NCBI GenBank assembly: GCA_903837355.1
Contig: CAILUI010000060.1
Coordinates: 26,304 to 90,303 of the forward strand
Reading direction: 5' to 3'
Length of the DNA: 64,000 nucleotides
From: an uncultured Victivallales bacterium
GTDB lineage: Bacteria > Verrucomicrobiota > Lentisphaeria > Oligosphaerales > JAFGRS01
The notes below the pieces were generated by a model, which worked only from the letters and a program-made list of their open reading frames with translations, searched no databases and was not told the origin of the DNA. Positions 42,440-53,078 of this stretch are shown in pieces (the first letter of the stretch is position 1; each line of letters starts with the position of its first letter). The position numbers and the translations under genes were made by a program.

Positions 42440-42501
42440 CCTCGGAGACCCGGTGGTGGAGAAAACTGTCTGGATGCACGTATGGCCACCCGTCACCCGC
42501 T

Positions 42502-42717
42502 TGGAGCCACCCGAAGCTGGGCCGTTACGCGGCCCCGAAGTACGGCACACTCTGGCGGACGGTTAGCGGCATCGACGCAGAGCCGTTCGAGCAGACCGTC
42601 AACCAGTGGTTCCATGACGAGAAGCGCCTGCCGACGGCGCCGGCGCTCGACGGGGAGGTGCTGTGGGGCACCCTGCTGGGGCCCCCCCCGCGTTGCATTC
42701 CGCCTGCCACCGTCTAG
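42502..42717 (+). pseudogene. ISAs1-family transposase N-terminal remnant
   Basis: One frame reads PKYGTLWRTVSGIDAEPFEQ, then a Trp-containing stretch and APALDGEVLWGT. This matches the N-terminal associated domain of ISAs1-type transposases, whose hallmark is an S/Y-TL-R..D...F...W...AIDGK-L-G pattern. The Lys of DGK is Glu here, the start is missing and the frame stops at TAG 42715-42717, so only about 70 codons survive. The next gene's ribosome site begins soon after. Confidence 0.65.
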
Positions 42718-42754
42718 TTTGCCCAGGTCTTCCCGGCCCACAGGAGTCCGTCAG

Positions 42755-44170
42755 ATGCAGCTCTGTGCCCAGGCCCTGGCCTTCGCTCCGCCGGCCCTTG
42801 CCAGCCTCGCACTCTCTCTGGTGGCCGCGCCACCCTTGGCCGCAGCTACGGAGCCCTGTCGCATCGAGGTCGTTGAGAAGGGCAGCGGCTGGCCCGTACC
42901 CCTCGTTGAACTGCGGACTACACACCAGGTCCGCCTGGTCTCCGACAACGCCGGCCTCATCGCCTTCGATCTGCCCGAGTTGATGATGCGCGAGACCTGG
43001 TTCGACGTGATCGGTCACGGCTACGAGGTGCCGCCGGATGGCTTCGGCTACCGCGGGGTACGTCTGACCCCGCGGCCCGGGGCAACCCTGCGCCTGGAGG
43101 TCACCCGCACCTGCGTGGCCCGGCGCCTGGGCCGCCTCACCGGGGCTGGACTCTTTGCGGAGAGCCAACGCCTCGGCCAGAACCTCGACTGGCGCGAGTC
43201 CGGAATCGTGGGCTGCGACAGCGTACAGACTGCCGTCTATCGCGGCCGCCTGTTCTGGCTCTGGGGCGATACCTCCCTGGCCTCCTATCCGCTCGGCATC
43301 TTCCACGCCACCGCCGCCACCACGGCGATCCAGCCCCTCGCCGCCTGGGAACCGCCGCTGCGCCTGCCGCTCGACTACATCAGCGACGACCAGGGCCAGC
43401 CGCGGGCCGTGGCGCGCATGGCGGGCGATGGCCCGACCTGGCTGACAGGTTGCGTCGCCCTGCCCGACCAGGCGGGCGTGGCGCGCCTGGTCGGCGCCTA
43501 TGTCAAGATCCGCCCGCCCCTGGAAGCCTACCAGTGGGGACTGTGCGTCTGGAACGACGCCACGGCCGCGTTTGAGCCACTGCGGCTGGTCTGGACACAG
43601 TCCGCTGCGGCACCCAAACCGCCCGCCCTGCCGGAGGGACACGCGCTGCTCTGGACCGACGACCAGGGCAGAGCCTGGGTCCTCTTCGGCAACCCGCTGC
43701 CGACGCTGCGTTGCCCAGCCACCTTCGAGGCCTGGCAGGACGCGGCGCAATGGGAGGTGCTGACCCCGCCGGCAACCCTCGCCGCCGCCGGCGATGGCAA
43801 GCCGGTGAAACCGCACAGCGGTTCCTGCGCCTGGAACCCCTGGCGCCAACGCTGGGTCACGGTCTTCATGGAGGCGTTCGGCAAGCCCGCCGCCTTCGGT
43901 GAGCTGTGGTATGCCGAGGCCGCAGCGCCCACCGGGCCGTGGGGACCGGCCGTCAAGATCCTCTCCCACGACAACTACACCTTCTACAACCCGCGCCTGC
44001 ATCCGGAGTTCAGCGACGCGGACTCGCCGGTCCTGCTGTTCGAGGGCACCTACACCCAGCAGTTCGCTGACCGGCCACCGCCGACCCCGCGTTACGAGTA
44101 CAACCAGATCCTGTATCGGCTCAACCTCGACGATCCGGCGCTGGCCGCGGCGCGCGGACCGCAGCCATAG
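42755..44170 (+). CDS. Secreted DUF4185-like propeller protein
   Basis: About 471 residues from ATG 42755, chosen for CAGGAG upstream and a signal-like N-terminus (ALAFAPPALASLALSLVAAPPLAAA); the ORF-track start at 42482 lies in the transposase remnant. Residues about 33-130 look like a carboxypeptidase-regulatory beta domain (GSGWPVPLVELRTTHQVRLVSDNAGLI). The rest resembles DUF4185 (YRGRLFWLWGDTSLASYPLG; FYNPRLHPEFSD), a five-bladed propeller of unknown role seen with sugar-active proteins. It runs convergently into the second ceramidase-like gene. Confidence 0.7.
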   Translation: MQLCAQALAFAPPALASLALSLVAAPPLAAATEPCRIEVVEKGSGWPVPLVELRTTHQVRLVSDNAGLIAFDLPELMMRETWFDVIGHGYEVPPDGFGYRGVRLTPRPGATLRLEVTRTCVARRLGRLTGAGLFAESQRLGQNLDWRESGIVGCDSVQTAVYRGRLFWLWGDTSLASYPLGIFHATAATTAIQPLAAWEPPLRLPLDYISDDQGQPRAVARMAGDGPTWLTGCVALPDQAGVARLVGAYVKIRPPLEAYQWGLCVWNDATAAFEPLRLVWTQSAAAPKPPALPEGHALLWTDDQGRAWVLFGNPLPTLRCPATFEAWQDAAQWEVLTPPATLAAAGDGKPVKPHSGSCAWNPWRQRWVTVFMEAFGKPAAFGELWYAEAAAPTGPWGPAVKILSHDNYTFYNPRLHPEFSDADSPVLLFEGTYTQQFADRPPPTPRYEYNQILYRLNLDDPALAAARGPQP

Positions 44171-44188: not shown

Positions 44189-45493
44189 TCACAGCGCCGC
44201 CAAGGCCTGCCGTACGGCGTCCAGGATCAGCGCTTCGGACTGCGGCAGCGGCATGGTCGTGCCATAGTAGCGGATCGCGTCGCAGACCTCGTAACCGCCT
44301 TCGGAGTACGCGGCGGCGGTGGGGATGTAGCCCGCGTTACCGTTGGCGTAGCCAGCCACGAGGGTCGGGCTGAACGGACTGCCGCGGTCGATGTTCAGAG
44401 CGTACTCAACAAAGACCTCTCCAGGCAGGCCGACGATGGCACCGGTCCCCACCCGCAGCGCCTGCACCTCAAAGGCCACCGTCTGGCCGCGAACGCCTGC
44501 CGCGGCGAGCCGCAGCAGTTCGCCGGACCACTCGACGGCGCCCTCCGCCATCCAGCGTACGCCGCGGTTGGCGGTTGCCGGCAGGACCGCGAGCTGCGCC
44601 TGGGCAGCCGCAAGCTGCGCCCTGGCCTCGGCCAGCGGCGGCGGCGGCGCCAGCGGCAGAACCAGAGGCACCACGGCAGCACCCAGGAGCACGCGCTCGG
44701 ACACGGACGCCCTGGCTACCGCTGCCTTGACCGCCGCCGCCGCCGCGAGCCCCTGACTCTCGACGCCGGCCTCACCACGCTCGCGACAGTTGAGGTTGCC
44801 GCAGCACCCTTGCAGGAAGAGCGCCGTGACCCCGGGTTCGTCCGCCTCGATACCGCGCCGCGCGGCGCCGGGCCAGTCGGCTGAGATCAGCGTGTTGTCA
44901 CCCCCCAACGCCACGGCGTGCGCCGCGTGCGAGAACAGCCGCGCCAGCGGCACGCCGGCCGCCGTCGTCACCGCCAGAACGTCGACGTACGGGGCCGTGC
45001 AGCCCTCGTCGTTGGCGCCAATCACCATCCCAGCGGCCGTCCACTGACGGCGGTTGCGGCCGACCTGCAGTTCGACGCGAGCCCAGCCGGCCCGCGCGGC
45101 CTGGGCGTGCTCCCGGGCCGCCGCCGCGGTCGTGCATAGGGTCCGGAGCAGCCCCGCAAAATAGGCCCGATCCGTCTGGCCGAGGAAACTGAGGCCCGGC
45201 GTGGCCGGACCGGCGTGGGTATGGCTGCAACCGACCAGAATATGGGTCGCCGGCACGCCTGTCCCGGCCTCGATCTCACGGCGCAGCGCCACCACATCAG
45301 CGTGCCGCAGGCCGATCAGATCACAGCTCAGAATGAGCAGTTCGCAGGCCCCATCGGCAAGGTAGAGAGCGCTGGCCACCAGCCGGTCGCGGACCCCCGT
45401 ACTCGGCCCCGGCCGCGCCCCATAGCCACACAAGTCTACCCCGACCGGCGGCGTGATGTCCGCCCGTGCTGCACCCGCCACGAAAGGGCTCAT
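44189..45493 (-). CDS. Neutral/alkaline ceramidase-like hydrolase (copy 2)
   Basis: About 434 residues from ATG 45493, with AGGAGGACGA upstream; the longer ORF to 45550 adds 19 unsupported residues. Motifs parallel copy 1: ADITPPVGVDLCGYG, metal site GCSHTHAGPA, a second histidine region HAAHAVALGGDN followed by ISADWPGA, and QGCCGNLNC in place of the ceramidase nucleophile segment. No signal peptide is evident. The two copies are clearly diverged. The substrate is unknown. Confidence 0.8.
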   Translation of the reverse strand: MSPFVAGAARADITPPVGVDLCGYGARPGPSTGVRDRLVASALYLADGACELLILSCDLIGLRHADVVALRREIEAGTGVPATHILVGCSHTHAGPATPGLSFLGQTDRAYFAGLLRTLCTTAAAAREHAQAARAGWARVELQVGRNRRQWTAAGMVIGANDEGCTAPYVDVLAVTTAAGVPLARLFSHAAHAVALGGDNTLISADWPGAARRGIEADEPGVTALFLQGCCGNLNCRERGEAGVESQGLAAAAAVKAAVARASVSERVLLGAAVVPLVLPLAPPPPLAEARAQLAAAQAQLAVLPATANRGVRWMAEGAVEWSGELLRLAAAGVRGQTVAFEVQALRVGTGAIVGLPGEVFVEYALNIDRGSPFSPTLVAGYANGNAGYIPTAAAYSEGGYEVCDAIRYYGTTMPLPQSEALILDAVRQALAAL

Positions 45494-45568
45494 CCGTCGT
45501 CCTCCTCTGGTTCGCTCGTGAAGCGAATTTAACGCGCGCTCAGGATGCACTCAATCTGCCGCGGCCTT

Positions 45569-45648: not shown

Positions 45649-47088
45649 ATGCCCGCTGTGAACGCCGCGAATGCCGCCGAGCCGCGGCGCTATCCGCTTC
45701 TCTGGCTAGCGCTTATCGCCGGCGTCGTGTACCTGTCTGGGTACACCGTCGGGCCGCCGGTCGTCAACGCCGAACTACGGTGTGTGGAGATCGCCCGCAC
45801 CATGTACGCCACCGGCGAGGTACTGGTGCCGCGGCTCGAGGGCGAGCCGCATCTGACCAAGCCGCCGCTGTTCCATTGGCTCTCCTATGCGGTCTCTGTC
45901 GCGCGCGGGCAGGCCGGAATCGGGTCCGTACGCCTGGTAGCGGCCCTCGCCAGCGTGGGGGTGGTGCTGCTGACCTACGTGCTGGGACTACAGCTCGCGA
46001 ACGCCCGCGTCGCCTGGTGGGCGGCGCTGCTGACGCTGACCAATCTTTCCCTGCTCAGCAATGGCCACCGGGGTACGTTCGATACCTTGCTGACCCTCTT
46101 CGTCTGCCTGACCCTCTGTGGTTACCTGGGGATCAGGGGCGGCAGGCAGAGAACAGGCTACGCGCTGATTGTGGCCGGCCTGATCGGGGGCTTCCTGACC
46201 AAGGGTTTCATGGGCTGGGTGGTACCGCTGGTACCCATGCTGCTTGACCGCCTCTGCCGGCCGCGGCCGCGAGAGGCCCTGCGCCCGGTGCTGTGGATTC
46301 TGCCGGGCGTCCTGGCGGGCTCGCTGGCCTGGTACGGCTACCTGCTGCTGTGCGTCCCCGCCGCCCGGACGGTGCTGCTCGACGTCGTGACCGTCAACTT
46401 CGGCGTCAAGCGCTCCGGGGTCGAGATGGCCTTCCACGGCGAGCCCTTCTACTACTACCTCTACGCGCTGCCGTTCGCGCTGCTGCCCTGGGTCGCGATC
46501 CTCTGGCCCGCCCTCCGGCGCCCGGCCATGGGGCTGCGCGACTGGGCCAACCAGCAGCGGCTGCTGCTGGGTTGGCTGCTGGGGAACGCGGTCTTTCTCG
46601 CCCTGGTGCCCGCCAAGGCCGAACGCTACCTCGTGCCGCTGCTACCGGCGTTCGGCCTGCTGGCCGCGCCTGCCATCCTGGCCATCGAGGCCGGCACGGC
46701 CGCGACGACCCGCCGCTGGCGGCGCTGGCTGCTGACGGTGACCCTCCTGCTGAGTACCGCGGTAGTCTGCGTCCTGCCCCTCTGGCTCTGGGTGCGCATT
46801 GGCGAGAGCCTGGCCGTCGCCATCATGGCCCCCGCCGTGCTGCTGCTCTGCTTGCTGGTGGCGGCATGGCATACCTGGCGCGGACGGCTGACCGCGGCAC
46901 TGCATGGACTCGTCCTCTTCGTGATCCTGGCCGCGACCCCAGCCTACGCCCGCTGGGTGCCCATCCATACCGATCTGAGTCACCGCCATACCTCACCCGA
47001 GCACGAGCAGTACCGGTCCCGCCAGCGGCAACTGGCAGGCTACGCGGCCCGGTTCGTCCCTGGACGGGTGAAGGAGCCGGCCCCCTAG
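45649..47088 (+). CDS. GT39/ArnT-type membrane glycosyltransferase
   Basis: 479 residues with about 11 hydrophobic segments. The first loop has VNAELRCVEIARTMYATGE and the second GEPHLTKPPLFHWL, as in ArnT/PMT-like transferases that use polyprenyl-phosphate sugars on the outer face of the inner membrane. The usual Asp-Glu pair of the first loop reads Asn-Ala-Glu, keeping the Glu. The C-terminus is short. With the GT2 and LpxL-fusion genes downstream it likely decorates lipid A or another envelope lipid. Confidence 0.85.
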   Translation: MPAVNAANAAEPRRYPLLWLALIAGVVYLSGYTVGPPVVNAELRCVEIARTMYATGEVLVPRLEGEPHLTKPPLFHWLSYAVSVARGQAGIGSVRLVAALASVGVVLLTYVLGLQLANARVAWWAALLTLTNLSLLSNGHRGTFDTLLTLFVCLTLCGYLGIRGGRQRTGYALIVAGLIGGFLTKGFMGWVVPLVPMLLDRLCRPRPREALRPVLWILPGVLAGSLAWYGYLLLCVPAARTVLLDVVTVNFGVKRSGVEMAFHGEPFYYYLYALPFALLPWVAILWPALRRPAMGLRDWANQQRLLLGWLLGNAVFLALVPAKAERYLVPLLPAFGLLAAPAILAIEAGTAATTRRWRRWLLTVTLLLSTAVVCVLPLWLWVRIGESLAVAIMAPAVLLLCLLVAAWHTWRGRLTAALHGLVLFVILAATPAYARWVPIHTDLSHRHTSPEHEQYRSRQRQLAGYAARFVPGRVKEPAP

Positions 47089-47117
47089 CCTGACCTATTC
47101 ACAAACCGTCATTTCAA

Positions 47118-47220
47118 CCACGAAGAACGCGACGTTCACGAAGACGAACTGAGCCAGAGGGATAGGCTGTAACCATGTGTCACTCATCACCTTCGTGGTC
47201 TTCGTGCCCTTCGTGGTGAG
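47118..47220. repeat. CACGAAG / CTTCGTG intergenic inverted-repeat element
   Basis: Left arm: CCACGAAG (47118-47125) and CACGAAG (47137-47143). Right arm: CTTCGTGG (47191-47198), CTTCGTG (47200-47206) and CTTCGTGGTGAG (47209-47220). The arms can pair to a long hairpin in the gap before the GT2 gene. Similar CCACGAAG-rich elements are common in genomes of several phyla. Confidence 0.75.
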
Positions 47221-47244
47221 TCATCCAGGCGAGGAGATCTCTGC

Positions 47245-47982
47245 GTGCCGAACCCGCCCATAGCCCTCGAACTGAGTGTGGTGGTACCGGTCCATAATGA
47301 GGAAGGCGCCGTCGGCGCACTGGCCACGGAGGTCGAGCAGGCGCTGGCGCCATTGGGTCACGCCTGGGAGTGCATCTGGGTCGACGATGGCTCCACCGAC
47401 CGGACGGTGGCCGTGCTGGCAGAACACCTGCCCGGTAGCCGGCACCGCCTACTCGAACTGCAACGCAACAGCGGCCAGTCGGCGGCGTTGATGGCCGGCT
47501 TCCGGGCCGCCCGCGGGCGCTTCATCGCCACCCTCGACGGCGACGGCCAGAACAACCCGGCAGACCTCATGGGCATGCTGGCTCGCCTGCGCGTCGGCGA
47601 CGTGGACGCCGTCAACGGCATCCGTGCCAAACGCCGCGACACCTGGGTGCGTCGGGTCAGCTCGCGAATCGCCAACGCCTACCGCAATGGCCTCACCGGC
47701 GAGCAGGTCACCGATGTCGGTTGCGCCATCCGCGTCTTCCGCCGCGAGTGCACCGACTTCCTGCCCGTCTTCAAGGGCATGCATCGCTTCCTGCCCACGC
47801 TGTTTCGCCTGCACGGCTTCACGATCACCGAGATGCCAGTGTCGCACCGGCCCCGCGAAACCGGCCGCACCAAGTACGGCATCAACAACCGCCTCTGGGT
47901 GGGCCTCGCCGACACACTGGCCATCTGTTGGATGCAGCGCCGCGTGGCCGTGCCCCGGGTGAAGCGGGAACTGCCAGAATGA
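47245..47982 (+). CDS. GT2 polyprenyl-phosphate glycosyltransferase
   Basis: 245 residues, cytosolic or peripheral. GT2 core: VVVPVHNEEGAVGAL, IWVDDGSTDRT, LDGDGQNNPAD (metal-binding DxD region), DVGCAIRVFRR and the C-terminal RETGRTKYGI typical of dolichol/undecaprenyl-phosphate sugar transferases (DPM1/ArnC type). No C-terminal TM segments. The start is GTG 47245 with GAGGAG upstream. It would make the lipid-linked sugar used by the GT39 enzyme. It overlaps the next gene by four bases (ATGA). Confidence 0.88.
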   Translation: MPNPPIALELSVVVPVHNEEGAVGALATEVEQALAPLGHAWECIWVDDGSTDRTVAVLAEHLPGSRHRLLELQRNSGQSAALMAGFRAARGRFIATLDGDGQNNPADLMGMLARLRVGDVDAVNGIRAKRRDTWVRRVSSRIANAYRNGLTGEQVTDVGCAIRVFRRECTDFLPVFKGMHRFLPTLFRLHGFTITEMPVSHRPRETGRTKYGINNRLWVGLADTLAICWMQRRVAVPRVKRELPE

Positions 47983-49544
47983 ACCGTGCCGTACTCTGCC
48001 TCGGACTGGGGGCGCAGGCTCTTTTCGGTGGCCGCTTCCTGATCCAGTGGATCGCGAGCGAACGGGCTGGCAAGAGCGTCGTGCCGGCGGCATTCTGGTT
48101 CGTCAGCCTGGCGGCGTCCTCGTTGCTGTTACTGTATGCCGGGCTGCGGCACGACCCGGTGAATGCCGCCGCCCAGGTGGTCTCGCTGGCGGTGACCCTC
48201 TGGAACCTGCACCTGCAACGACGTCCCGCGGCGGCCCATCCGGCCACCGCGGCCGGAGCCGCGGCACCGCCGTGCCATGTGGAGTTCGGCGTGGTCGCCG
48301 GCATCATCCTGACCTCCGTCCTGGCGGCCGGGGTGGCCGTACGCCTTCCCGAGCCCATCCCGCCGCTCTGGTTGATGATTGGCCTGATCGGCCAGTTCGT
48401 CTTCAGCATCCGTTTCGCACTGCAGGTCCTGGCCAGCGAGCGCCAGGGCAAGTCCGTGATGCCGGTGGGATTCTGGTACTGCAGCATCGCCGGGTCTGCC
48501 TTGCTGTTAGCCTATGCCTGCTACCGCCTGGACCCCGTGTTCATGCTGGCCAACGCGCCCAACGTCTTCGTCTACGTGCGCAACCTGCAACTGATCCGCA
48601 AGGACCAACGGCGCGCCCGCCAGGCGGGCGCCGGGCTCGAGCCGCAGCACCGGCGCCGCGCGCGCTGGCTGGGGCGCCTGCTCGCACCCATGAACTACGC
48701 TGGGCTCCTCGTGGTCTGCTTCGCCCTGCGCCAACTGCCGCGCCGCTGGGCCTTGGCCGTCGGCGCCGGGGCCGGCTTTTGCGCGTACCACCTGCGCCTC
48801 CGGCGCGGGATCGTGGAGAAGAACCTGGACTACACCGGCCTCATCGCCCCCGGGGAGCGGCGGGCCTTTACCCGCCGCCTCTACCGCACCATGGGGCGCT
48901 ACGCCGCCGACTTCCTGGCCTTTGACGAGCGGCACCCCCCGCGACTCGTGTGCGATCCCCCCGACGCCCTGGACCGCGTGCGTGCCTGCAGCGACGGCCG
49001 GCTCCTCATCAGCGCCCACTTCGGCAACTGGGAACTGCTGGGATACGAGCTCAGGAGATTCGTCCCACGTCTGGCGGTGGTAGCCAAGCCGCTGCGCAAT
49101 CCCTGGGTTGACCGTTGGTTGACCCGCCGGCGCGAACGTACCGGGGTGGAGCTTGTCCTCCCCAAGGACGCCCTGCGCCAGACGCTGCGCGTGGTTGAGG
49201 AGGGCGGCTACGTGGCCTACCTCATCGACCAGTACCCCGGCCGGCGCGGCACCCCGGTGCCGTTCCTCGGCAAGACCGCACTGACCGTGCGCAGCGTCGC
49301 CGGCATCGCCATCCTCTGTTCAGCGCGGGTGATGGCGGGATACGCTCTGCTCGAGGCCGATGGTTCGTATCGGGTCACCATTGAGGAACCACCGCCGGTC
49401 GTGGGCAAGGACGGCGACCGTCAGGACGCCATCAACCAGCACCTCGTCGCGCACAACCAGATCATCTCGCGCTGGGTCGAAGCCTACCCCGAGCACTGGT
49501 TTGGCTGGTTCCACCGCCGCTTCAAGGACGTGGTGCGCTACTGA
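47979..49544 (+). CDS. Fusion: two lipid-A N-terminal (LAB_N) domains + LpxL-type acyltransferase
   Basis: 521 residues. Two tandem small membrane domains of the lipid-A biosynthesis N-terminal type: one at about 1-78 (GGRFLIQWIASERAGKSVVP) and one at about 108-205 (SIRFALQVLASERQGKSVMP). Each has the RF-Q-ASER-GKS signature. A LpxL/HtrB-like acyltransferase follows at about 225-521, with the catalytic HX4E at His347 (HFGNWE) and YLIDQYPGRRGTPVPFLG. LAB_N is normally a single stand-alone or LpxB-linked domain. Coupled to GT2 by ATGA. Probably acylates a lipid A-like acceptor at the inner membrane. Its 3' end overlaps the convergent gene. Confidence 0.88.
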   Translation: MNRAVLCLGLGAQALFGGRFLIQWIASERAGKSVVPAAFWFVSLAASSLLLLYAGLRHDPVNAAAQVVSLAVTLWNLHLQRRPAAAHPATAAGAAAPPCHVEFGVVAGIILTSVLAAGVAVRLPEPIPPLWLMIGLIGQFVFSIRFALQVLASERQGKSVMPVGFWYCSIAGSALLLAYACYRLDPVFMLANAPNVFVYVRNLQLIRKDQRRARQAGAGLEPQHRRRARWLGRLLAPMNYAGLLVVCFALRQLPRRWALAVGAGAGFCAYHLRLRRGIVEKNLDYTGLIAPGERRAFTRRLYRTMGRYAADFLAFDERHPPRLVCDPPDALDRVRACSDGRLLISAHFGNWELLGYELRRFVPRLAVVAKPLRNPWVDRWLTRRRERTGVELVLPKDALRQTLRVVEEGGYVAYLIDQYPGRRGTPVPFLGKTALTVRSVAGIAILCSARVMAGYALLEADGSYRVTIEEPPPVVGKDGDRQDAINQHLVAHNQIISRWVEAYPEHWFGWFHRRFKDVVRY

Positions 49545-52257
49545 GTCCGTCAGCCACAGGCAACTCCCGGACCTCGAGGTTGCTGACGTTGAAGCGGGTC
49601 CGGTAGCCGCCGATGGCCACGACCGGGGTCGCCAGGGGCGCCGGGTCGCGATAGCTGAGCACGGCCAGGCCATTGACGACGGCCGTGAACTGGTCCCCCT
49701 GCCGCACCAGGCAAATGCGGTTGCGCCGTGGCTGGTAGGGGGCGTGGCCGCCGACGTACTGGATGGGGAAGGCGCGATCCTGTTTGACGGCTGCGACCTC
49801 GACGCCGTTGCGGTAGAGCACCGTCTGCGAGCGCTCCCGGCTGTTGACCTCGAGACGGTAGCCCTGCGCCAGGTTCGCGTCTGCCGCCAGCACGGCGCAG
49901 ATGTTGTCGCACGGGCGGTGGTCATGGCTGTGCTCCCGATTCCAGCCCAGCCACTCGGTGTTCTCTTCGCTGTTGAACGCCACCAGCACCGCGCCCGTAC
50001 AGCTCTCCTTCCGCACCAGCATGCCCTCGCCCTCCGGAGCGTCCAGGCTGATCCAGTTGGAGGCCAGCGCGCAGGCGATGCCGCCGTGGTCGGTCCATGT
50101 CCCGCGGCGCCACCAGTCGGTCTCGCGCCGGTCGAAGGCCGCGAAAGAGCTCCGTCGACCGGCCGCAACGGCCCGCCGCGGCATCGTGAAAATGATATCG
50201 TCGAACTCCAGGTGGCCCTGCTCGATGCCCAGGAGCACCCCGCCGCCAATGCCGCGATCCACCGCGGCCTCCTGGGTCGGACCACCGTCCAGCCGCCAGC
50301 GCAGAGCGCGGTCCGCCAGCTCCACCTCCAGCGCGTGCCAGTCGCCAGGGGCGACGAGCGCCACCGCCTCCCCCGCCGCCTCTTGAGTCGCAGGAAGGAG
50401 ACGCAGCACCGTGCCCTTGCCGCCCTGCTCGCCCAGCAACAGGCGCCCAGCGGAGTCGGCCGCGGCCAGGCGCACGCGCAGGGCCAGCGTGAAGGGACCA
50501 TTGAGGGCCTGACAGAAACGCAACCTGGCGCCCGGCCCGGAACCGCGCAGCACCCCGGCCGCGATCGACCAGTCACCGGACTCGCGCTCCCAGACGGCGT
50601 AGTCGGTACTCGACCCCACCAGGTCCAGGAATTTGGCCTCGCGACGCAGGCGTTCCGGGTCCGCGGAGGCCGCTATTTGCCGGTACTCCTCAGGCGTGAA
50701 ATCGAGGTAGTCGGAAGGGTCGGCCACGCGGGCTTCAGTGAAGTGGTACGGACCCATCTGGAAGCTCTCGTCGGCAGGTGGCGAGCGGACCCGTAACGCG
50801 ATGCGGCGCAAACGGCAGCGCTGGCTCGCCTGCAGCACCGGTGGCGCCGACGGCGCCGCTGCCGTGAACACCATGGTCTCCCCGTGTGTGGCCACCGCGT
50901 AACCGGGGACCTGCAGCGTCGTCGCACCGCCGGGCCCGGTGCCGGCCACCGTGATCTCGCAGATGGCTTGGCCCTCGGGGCTTGCCAGTCGGATGGCACC
51001 ACGCGCCGCCGCCAGGGCCCAGCCGGAGTCGCGGCTGCGCGGCCGGTACCAGCGCGCCCCGTCCAGCGGCGCCCAGGCGGCCTGGAAATCACCCCCGTCG
51101 TCCGCCAGCCACGGAATCTCCTCGACCATCACGTCATCGAACCCCGCCGCCGCGCCCGCGACCAACAGCGTGGGCGTGCCGCAGTCGGCCGTCGGCAGGC
51201 CATCGAGTCGGCCCACCTCCCGGCCATCCAGACGGACCACCAGCGTCCAGGCCCAGCGCTCGACCTCCAGGCGGTACCACTGGCCCGCTTCGAAGCTCAG
51301 CCCCGGCGGCTGCAACACCGTCACCCCGGGCAGTTCCGGCAAGCGTACGCCATCCCCCACGACCACTGCGGTGCCGCCGTCGGCGGAGCGGAACAGCACC
51401 CCGACCGCCACCTGGGCTTGGGCAGCACAGAAGCTGACGCCGACCGTCGCCCCCCGCCAGGGCGCTCCGGCGAGCGCCGCCAGGCCCCATTGGCCAGGTG
51501 CCGGCGTCCCGTTCAGGGCATACTGCAGGGGGATGCGGTTGGGATCCAGCGAGAACGCCACCTGCCAGTCGCCCGACTCGAAACGCCAGCCCTCGCTGCC
51601 ATGCCCCGGCGAGCGATCAAAGCGGTCCGCGAAGCGGCGCAGCTCGGCGCCCTGTCGGTTCCCTGACAGGATGGGCCCCACCGGCAGGAAGTCCGCAGCG
51701 GCAGGACAGGCGAGCACTTGGTCGACCGCCACACCGTCCTCACGCTCGTGGACGGTGACCGCCTGCGCTCCGGCCTGCAGATCCGCCTCGCCGGCGTCGA
51801 CCCAATGCCAGAAGTGGTGGAGCGCGTCCTGACCCACCGTGAGTGGTTCGGTGGCGTCCAGGGATACACCCAGAGAGTTGCCGCAGGAGTCTGACCAGCG
51901 GCAACGTAGCCAGAGCCGGTAACGGCCGGCGGCGGGAACTTGCAGCGTCACGATACCACGCCCCGCATTGCGGGCCTTGTCGCCCTGGCCTTCGGCCAGA
52001 CTCAGGGCAAACCCCGCCGGTGAGGCGGCGCTCGCGACCACCGTGAAGGGGGCGACGACGGCCGTCTCGTTCCCCACCGTCGCCACCACGGCCCCCGCGG
52101 GCAGAGCCCCCTGCCCGGCGCCGACGCCGGCATCAGCCCCGTCCCGCAGCGGCACGCCGGGCGGCCAGGCCGTCAGCAGGAACGCCGCGATCAGCAGCGC
52201 GGACAGCACGGCCAGCCCGATCCCAACGAGCCCTTTCCGGCGCGGGTTGCTCAGCAT
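49522..52257 (-). CDS. Membrane-anchored protein with three concanavalin-like domains
   Basis: About 911 residues from ATG 52257 (a start at 52275 is also possible). One N-terminal TM anchor (KGLVGIGLAVLSALLIAAFLLTA). A beta region at about 60-200 is followed by three repeats of a LamG/3-keto-disaccharide-hydrolase-like beta sandwich (about 215-380, 560-730, 745-905). Each has the same progression: WRFESGDWQVAF, WERESGDWSIAA and DWWRRGTWTDHGG openings, a central VEVE/VNS strand, and FDDVMVEE, FDDIIFTM or FNVSNLEVRE near the ends. No catalytic residues recognised; likely a cell-surface glycan binder. The 3' end overlaps the LpxL fusion by 23 bases. Confidence 0.7.
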   Translation of the reverse strand: MLSNPRRKGLVGIGLAVLSALLIAAFLLTAWPPGVPLRDGADAGVGAGQGALPAGAVVATVGNETAVVAPFTVVASAASPAGFALSLAEGQGDKARNAGRGIVTLQVPAAGRYRLWLRCRWSDSCGNSLGVSLDATEPLTVGQDALHHFWHWVDAGEADLQAGAQAVTVHEREDGVAVDQVLACPAAADFLPVGPILSGNRQGAELRRFADRFDRSPGHGSEGWRFESGDWQVAFSLDPNRIPLQYALNGTPAPGQWGLAALAGAPWRGATVGVSFCAAQAQVAVGVLFRSADGGTAVVVGDGVRLPELPGVTVLQPPGLSFEAGQWYRLEVERWAWTLVVRLDGREVGRLDGLPTADCGTPTLLVAGAAAGFDDVMVEEIPWLADDGGDFQAAWAPLDGARWYRPRSRDSGWALAAARGAIRLASPEGQAICEITVAGTGPGGATTLQVPGYAVATHGETMVFTAAAPSAPPVLQASQRCRLRRIALRVRSPPADESFQMGPYHFTEARVADPSDYLDFTPEEYRQIAASADPERLRREAKFLDLVGSSTDYAVWERESGDWSIAAGVLRGSGPGARLRFCQALNGPFTLALRVRLAAADSAGRLLLGEQGGKGTVLRLLPATQEAAGEAVALVAPGDWHALEVELADRALRWRLDGGPTQEAAVDRGIGGGVLLGIEQGHLEFDDIIFTMPRRAVAAGRRSSFAAFDRRETDWWRRGTWTDHGGIACALASNWISLDAPEGEGMLVRKESCTGAVLVAFNSEENTEWLGWNREHSHDHRPCDNICAVLAADANLAQGYRLEVNSRERSQTVLYRNGVEVAAVKQDRAFPIQYVGGHAPYQPRRNRICLVRQGDQFTAVVNGLAVLSYRDPAPLATPVVAIGGYRTRFNVSNLEVRELPVADGLSSAPRP

Positions 52258-52301
52258 ATCGTGTGGCCTTACCATCCGCATTTCCCAGGCTGCCATGCTT
52301 C

Positions 52302-53078
52302 TCAGCCGCGAGACAGGCGGCGCCACGTCGCCTCGAGGTCGGCGGGCGTGAGCTCTGCCAGGATGCGTCCCTCCTGCTGCAGAGTCGTCTCGAGACGCTG
52401 GAACCGGCCGATGAACTTACGGACCCCCTGCTGCAGGACGTCCTCGGCCTCCAGATGATACCAGCGACAGAGGTTGGTCACCGCCAGCAGCAGATCGCCG
52501 AGTTCCTCCGCCGTCCGTCCTGGATCGCCCGACTGGCACGCCTCCTCGGCTTCGGCCAGTTCCTCCCGAACCTTGGCCCAGGCCCCGGCAACGGTGGGCC
52601 ACTCGAAGCCGACCTTGCCGGCCTTACGCAGCACCACCTGCGCCCGGTGCAGGGCCGGGAGTTGGCGCGGCACACCGTCGACCGCCGACGTCTTCCGGGC
52701 ATGGCGCTCCTCGTCGCGCTTGAGGCGATCCCACTGATCGACGACGTCCGCGGACGTTGCCGCCTGGGTGTCGCCAAACACGTGCGGGTGCCGGCGGCGC
52801 ATCTTCTCGCACTCCGACCGCGCCGCATCCTGCAGCGTGAAGCGCCCCTCCTCCTTGCCGATCTGGCCATGGAACACCAGCTGCAGGAGCACGTCCCCCA
52901 ACTCGTCAACGATGGCGCTGTCGTCGCCATCGTCGAGGGCGTCCAGCAGCTCGCCGCACTCCTCGATCAGGAAACGCTTCAGGCTGGCGTGCGTCTGCTC
53001 CCGGTCCCATGGACAGCCGCCCGGCCCGCGCAGGCGCTCGAGGATCGCCACCAGTTCCTGAATGTAATCGGTCTGCAC
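52302..53078 (-). CDS. mazG: MazG nucleoside triphosphate pyrophosphohydrolase
   Basis: About 258 residues from GTG 53078, chosen because GGGAGG lies about eight bases upstream and the protein then begins VQTDYIQELVAILERLRGP as expected; the ORF track extends to 53129. Two MazG domains are present: LIEECGELLDALDDGDD and VDELGDVLLQLVFHGQI in the first, REELAEAEEACQSGD and AEELGDLLLAVTNL in the second. Hydrolyses NTPs or dNTPs to NMPs and pyrophosphate, a housekeeping function. Gap of 44 bases to the anchored concanavalin-like gene. Confidence 0.95.
   Translation of the reverse strand: MQTDYIQELVAILERLRGPGGCPWDREQTHASLKRFLIEECGELLDALDDGDDSAIVDELGDVLLQLVFHGQIGKEEGRFTLQDAARSECEKMRRRHPHVFGDTQAATSADVVDQWDRLKRDEERHARKTSAVDGVPRQLPALHRAQVVLRKAGKVGFEWPTVAGAWAKVREELAEAEEACQSGDPGRTAEELGDLLLAVTNLCRWYHLEAEDVLQQGVRKFIGRFQRLETTLQQEGRILAELTPADLEATWRRLSRG

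Follow-up and report, generated by a model that had tools for sequence, protein, structure and literature searches.

At the locus described here, genes for a glycosyltransferase of family GT39, a glycosyltransferase of family GT2 and an unusual fused protein follow one another on the forward strand of the window, by which we mean the whole stretch of 64,000 nucleotides that was analysed. The window belongs to a metagenome-assembled genome (MAG) of 9.6 Mb with 95% completeness and 8% contamination. The GT39 (45649-47088, 479 aa, hereafter GT39b) is an ArnT-like member of the PMT_2 family, scoring 36.1 bits against Pfam PMT_2, above the Pfam cut-off, and 88.2 bits against the NCBIfam ArnT model, below the equivalog cut-off of 567; as judged by these profiles, it matches ArnT by family only. 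The GT2 (47245-47982, 245 aa) is of the polyprenyl-phosphate-sugar-synthase type, with 97.5 bits for Pfam Glycos_transf_2 and 126.5 bits for the NCBIfam ArnC model (positions 7-213 of 316; below the equivalog cut-off of 529), and no C-terminal membrane helices were found after its catalytic domain. The GT2 stop codon (47980-47982) overlaps the ATG of the fused gene at 47979 (ATGA). A sequence-only reading of this DNA had placed the fused gene in translational coupling with a GT2 lying 156 bases after an ArnT-like GT39; the overlap bears out the coupling and the distance is correct, with the likeness to ArnT confined to the family level. Its span of 47245-49544 does hold the fused protein but starts at the GT2, the fused gene itself being 47979-49544.

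The 156 intergenic bases between GT39b and GT2 (47089-47244) contain CTTCGTG-type imperfect inverted repeats, with 4 of the 6 matches found in the window (0.56 expected, and no shuffle reached 6), which could be an interspersed palindromic element; the RNA fold predicted for this stretch was not significant (z -1.6). Adjoining the locus on the opposite strand is a gene for a neutral/alkaline ceramidase-like protein (44189-45550), and large open frames beside it, 49522-52326 on the reverse strand (934 aa) and 42482-44170 on the forward strand (562 aa), have no Pfam match.

The fused protein (521 aa, forward strand) consists of a LAB_N domain, a helix, a second LAB_N domain and an LpxL-type acyltransferase. 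LAB_N (PF07578) is matched in two stretches with 174.8 bits (Pfam cut-off 26.7), and each copy passes that cut-off alone in a search of the own genome, with 90.4 bits for copy 1 (48000-48209) and 97.2 bits for copy 2 (48378-48590). Three helices are predicted by AF2 for either copy, at residues 3-30, 37-56 and 60-81 in the first and at 129-156, 163-183 and 186-215 in the second. A predicted transmembrane helix at residues 100-120 (48276-48338) separates them, coinciding with a hydropathy peak at 103-121 and modelled with a confidence of about 61-64 over much of its length. The LAB_N signature occurs twice, as GGRFLIQWIASERAGKS and SIRFALQVLASERQGKS; the copies are 49% identical (E 5e-21), and both are probably working, because neither has lost any of the eight residues that never vary in 60 LAB_N sequences from the phylum. 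The C-terminal LpxL/HtrB-type domain (48690-49544) gives 120.8 bits for Lip_A_acyltrans (PF03279, residues 244-516; Pfam cut-off 22.3) and a match to a lipid A acyltransferase of solved structure, PDB entry 5kn7 (E 8e-12), whose HFGTWE aligns with the HX4E catalytic motif HFGNWE (H347, E352; 49017-49034), and an in-frame ATG stands at the natural start of the domain, 48690. Two signature copies ahead of an HX4E acyltransferase in one protein, as had been noticed from the letters, are thus confirmed by Pfam in a single frame that has no internal stop.

The fusion is known from one MAG, and it might be an assembly or base-calling artefact, such as a stop missed in the linker around residues 206-237; this linker is very GC-rich, so that stops are rare there by chance and its open frame is weak evidence. 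However, a single frame of 521 codons contains both LAB_N and the acyltransferase, GC at third positions is coding-like along its whole length, and a frameshift would require compensating errors. We regard an artefact as very improbable. The sequence-only reading had considered absence from close relatives together with an assembly or frameshift error, and the fusion was indeed absent from the other genomes searched. A scan of 84,980 species, one genome each, for exact matches to peptide patterns taken from the two halves, which finds close relatives only, yielded no other LAB_N-LAB_N-acyltransferase protein among its best 80 loci, and the architecture is confirmed in the window with no second genome to join it. 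In these 80 loci, LAB_N lay nearby only in L005, from a sister genome of the same family (G003), and in L013, from a genome of the same order (G011). LAB_N was found in 4 of 48 genomes of the window's order and in 60 of 388 sampled across the phylum, and both searches returned LAB_N doubled in one frame only from the window genome and the sister genome; a weak second match in G179 is on a different contig. Of 289 genomes from the class to which an alphaproteobacterial MAG belongs, 78 have LAB_N, as a single copy except for one weak second match.

These relatives show how the locus may have been put together. In the sister genome the order is GT2, a doubled LAB_N fused to an ArnT-like GT39a (736 aa; L128 6545-8752, reverse strand), acyltransferase, a DUF3568 protein and GT39b, a fusion different from that of the window; identities with the window are 60% for GT39b, 64% for GT2 and 45% for the acyltransferase. 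The order in G011 is GT39, GT39b, GT2, a single LAB_N and the acyltransferase, all as separate genes. The GT39a of the sister genome is an orthologue (44%) of the GT39 that adjoins LAB_N in a further genome (G012). In a LAB_N tree, built on few columns and with window copy 1 on a long branch, the second copies of the window and the sister genome pair with each other (100/96), as do the first copies (98/76). A doubling as a private accident was rejected, both copies being common to the sister genome. We infer that the doubling predates the window's fusion and occurred in the family ancestor, and that the window lineage then lost GT39a and had its doubled LAB_N joined to the adjoining acyltransferase. 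A relocation of GT39a within the window genome was also rejected: there is no close counterpart, and the best match (C172, 30% identity) is flanked by neither LAB_N nor GT2 nor acyltransferase. The fusion would accordingly have arisen recently and locally in one MAG, presumably by loss of a stop between neighbouring genes, since LAB_N is fused to GT39 in the sister genome and the genes are separate in G011. The ATG at 48690 fits such a joining and may leave some separate translation of the acyltransferase.

The same history can be read as a fusion without functional meaning, in which operon neighbours lost a stop, the halves work independently and translation of the acyltransferase may begin at the ATG at 48690 as well. 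This agrees with the adjacent separate genes in G011, the different partner in the sister genome, the in-frame ATG at a natural domain start, the occurrence of related acyltransferases in LAB_N-free genomes and the finding of the fusion in one genome only among those searched. On the whole we think it rather unlikely, as doubled LAB_N has been joined at least three times to enzymes of envelope lipids or lipid-linked sugars (LpxL-type in the window, GT39 in the sister genome, LpxB in the model PRK01021), which exceeds what neighbourhood alone easily explains. The LpxB case rests on the NCBIfam model (NF002173/PRK01021), which we take to represent the chlamydial enzyme and which aligns with residues 7-213 of the fused protein in one stretch, across both LAB_N copies; by this model, a lipid A enzyme carrying a doubled LAB_N appears to have precedent. 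Beyond the fusion, found in one MAG, the larger value of the locus is a testable proposal for LAB_N.

The acyltransferase half falls, with strong support (100/99), into one clade together with the copies from the G003 and G011 operons and one G012 copy from outside the LAB_N locus, and the clade also has members from Lentisphaerota and Fibrobacterota. Copies that follow the species fall apart from it (G000:C206, G003:C467, G011:C293 and G012:C67). A housekeeping LpxL joined to LAB_N was considered and rejected, the presumed housekeeping copy being of a different clade and encoded elsewhere. Against the NCBIfam LpxL/LpxM equivalogs all scores were below the cut-offs, the best being 82.7 bits with a cut-off of 248. 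Clade members live in genomes in which LAB_N is absent (those of L003, L004 and the Fibrobacterota loci), and the acyltransferase can thus do without LAB_N. The proposed link between LAB_N function and acylation is thereby weakened, considering that the fusion is in one genome, that the acyltransferase of the sister genome is free and that parts of the clade lack LAB_N; the notion of one assembly unit for a modified lipid A gains little support. The fusion suggests a common pathway for LAB_N and the acyltransferase rather than an obligate LAB_N-acylation machine.

As for lipid A itself, the genes on which the sequence-only reading depended are present: the window genome encodes homologues of LpxC, LpxB and KdtA together with four PF03279-family acyltransferases. 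With these in hand the genome very likely makes lipid A, and a fusion outside any lipid A context was ruled out. Lipid A may also be the molecule that the locus modifies.

The relation of LAB_N to PQ-loop proteins is already known, since its InterPro profile is among those covering this group together with SWEETs and MPDU1 (Saudek 2012, PMC3281891). In our comparison of a LAB_N profile with PDB sequences, the six best matches were all SemiSWEETs (4qnc at E 2.8e-5, 5uhs, 5uhq, 4x5m, 9kax and 4rng), and the A1 profile gave the same outcome (E 1e-5). Alignment by hhalign with four SemiSWEETs of the same phylum reached a probability of 91% (E 1.1e-6, 81 columns), MtN3_slv matched 14 of the 60 single LAB_N sequences weakly, and the invariant Gln of LAB_N lined up with the PQ-motif Gln. 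Where SemiSWEETs have their invariant Trp (A3 position 50), 48 of 60 LAB_N sequences have Leu, and the position of the invariant SemiSWEET Asn holds Asn in 33/60 and Gln in 19/60. Because of the replaced Trp, the ligand of LAB_N, to judge from the alignment, must differ from that of SemiSWEETs, and transport of free sugars in their manner is unlikely.

A single LAB_N is modelled by AlphaFold as three helices (pLDDT 96), and the doubled form by AF2 as seven helices in 3-1-3 order (pLDDT 84, pTM 0.74), so that, in the model, the two copies and the middle helix adopt the layout of SWEET and MPDU1 proteins. Foldseek searches of the PDB with the doubled and the single form listed SWEET/SemiSWEET among the best natural matches (E 0.2 or worse, TM about 0.4-0.5), none of the matches being significant, and the fold comparison is best called suggestive. 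MPDU1, a PQ-loop protein required for all dolichol-phosphate-sugar-dependent transfers (PMC3281891), may be the closest functional parallel to LAB_N. The literature yielded no experiment on a LAB_N protein, and searches on LAB_N function were fruitless. The idea that LAB_N may hold or flip a lipid-linked sugar fits its kinship with SemiSWEETs and, on the whole, finds real support.

Across the phylum, a GT2, a GT39 or both lie no more than 2.5 kb from LAB_N, on its strand, at 38 of 61 loci, and neither does at 23/61; this count includes related, non-independent genomes and some truncated contigs. The tie of LAB_N to GT2/GT39 is real and recurrent, and all three occur together in the window and at 24 other loci. 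The loci that lack GT2/GT39 have mixed Pfam neighbours (aminotransferase with exosortase, IMPDH, DnaJ, nitroreductase). A divergent LAB_N gene precedes a class-V aminotransferase at two such loci (L147 5891-9085 and L190 3782-5556), the former context also holding an exosortase (EpsH) gene.

The GT2s just upstream of LAB_N all lack C-terminal transmembrane helices (36/36; L128-L193 and the window), and two such helices are present in 2/5 other GT2s at LAB_N loci, a small comparison group. LAB_N begins directly after the GT2, often overlapping it. These observations would also suit a LAB_N that serves as membrane anchor and activator of the anchorless GT2, the donor being flipped by another protein. 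Parallels are the small subunits that accompany dolichol-phosphate-mannose synthase in eukaryotes, and GacJ, a protein of three helices that GacI probably needs in order to form its product efficiently (PMC8035078). We consider a purely anchoring role rather unlikely, for it leaves unexplained both the kinship with a transporter family and the fusions to GT39 or acyltransferase instead of GT2. LAB_N could anchor the GT2, move its polyprenyl-phosphate-sugar, or do both.

In published three-component systems, a GT-A synthase works with a small flippase and a GT-C enzyme, and the small protein is a proposed flippase of the GtrA, SMR, MATE or Wzx type (PMC8035078, PMC11127046). By analogy, LAB_N fits either slot, that of the flippase or that of a GacJ-like synthase helper. 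Our preferred reading, held tentatively and at a little short of an even chance, is that the locus encodes a membrane glycosylation system of three components, to which an acyltransferase is attached. On the cytoplasmic side, the anchorless GT2 would load a sugar onto polyprenyl phosphate. The doubled LAB_N, as a covalent pair of SemiSWEET-like three-helix bundles with the linker helix between them (3-1-3), would take up the lipid-linked sugar at the membrane and help to present or move the sugar toward the periplasmic side, where GT39 would pass it to an acceptor in the envelope, with lipid A or LPS core as the likeliest candidates. The same envelope lipid would be acylated, on the cytoplasmic face, by the C-terminal LpxL-type domain as its dedicated enzyme. 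The nature of the sugar and of the acceptor, the presentation or flipping of the donor and the working of both halves in one pathway are conjectural parts of this scheme.

In favour of the three-component reading are the SemiSWEET profile matches, the 3-1-3 model, the GT2/GT39 neighbours with their anchorless GT2s, the LAB_N-GT39 fusion of the sister genome, the adjacent LAB_N and acyltransferase genes in G011, an acyltransferase that is no orthologue of housekeeping LpxL, the presence of lipid A genes and the likeness to published systems. Against it are the insignificant Foldseek matches, the lost Trp, the 23/61 loci that have neither GT2 nor GT39 and the clade members living without LAB_N. 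It is also conceivable that LAB_N serves to bind lipid A precursors, or to position them, for the enzyme fused to it, independently of polyprenyl-linked sugars, as fusions to LpxB-type and LpxL-type enzymes of lipid A might indicate. This is improbable, however, because most LAB_N genes are free and stand beside GT2/GT39 instead of lipid A enzymes, and the closest fusion, that of the sister genome, is to a GT39.

Taken with the three-component reading, the data suggest that LAB_N domains may help to bring lipid-linked sugars across the membrane. A wider claim, possible but less likely than not, is that LAB_N forms a distinct and so far unrecognised class of bacterial translocases or presenters for polyprenyl-phosphate-sugars, a counterpart of eukaryotic MPDU1 in both structure and function that serves anchorless GT2s and GT39s and acts as dimers of three-helix bundles, in this family as a covalent 3-1-3 unit fused to a GT39 or to an LpxL- or LpxB-type enzyme. 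The proposal is underlain by the SemiSWEET kinship, the pairing with anchorless GT2s and the fusions of the doubled form together. It gives LAB_N, which is widespread and has no assigned role, a concrete and testable one in the use of lipid-linked sugars, and it touches the question of which protein flips monosaccharide-polyprenyl-phosphates in bacteria and their dolichol counterparts in eukaryotes.

Compared with known systems, the locus has the GT-A lipid-sugar synthase, GT-C transferase and small membrane protein of GtrA/GtrB/Gtr, CsbB/GtcA/YfhO and ArnC/ArnEF/ArnT, but here the small protein is LAB_N, not GtrA, SMR, MATE or Wzx, and the GT2 lacks the usual C-terminal helices. With SemiSWEET, SWEET, PQ-loop (MtN3) and MPDU1 proteins, LAB_N shares significant profile similarity, the three-helix unit, the PQ-loop Gln and, when doubled, the 3-1-3 order, whereas the Trp invariant in SemiSWEETs is mostly missing. 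The acyltransferase has the PF03279 family and the HX4E motif in common with LpxL/LpxM (5kn7) and PatA, but sits in its own clade with Lentisphaerota and Fibrobacterota members. Chlamydial-type LpxB likewise places two LAB_N copies, in the same order, ahead of an enzyme, which is a lipid A disaccharide synthase there and an acyltransferase here. The nearest relative is the doubled LAB_N-GT39 of the sister genome, with an orthologous LAB_N pair and the same GT2, acyltransferase and GT39b as neighbours; there the partner of LAB_N is GT39a and the acyltransferase is free, whereas in the window genome, which has no GT39a, the partner is the acyltransferase itself.
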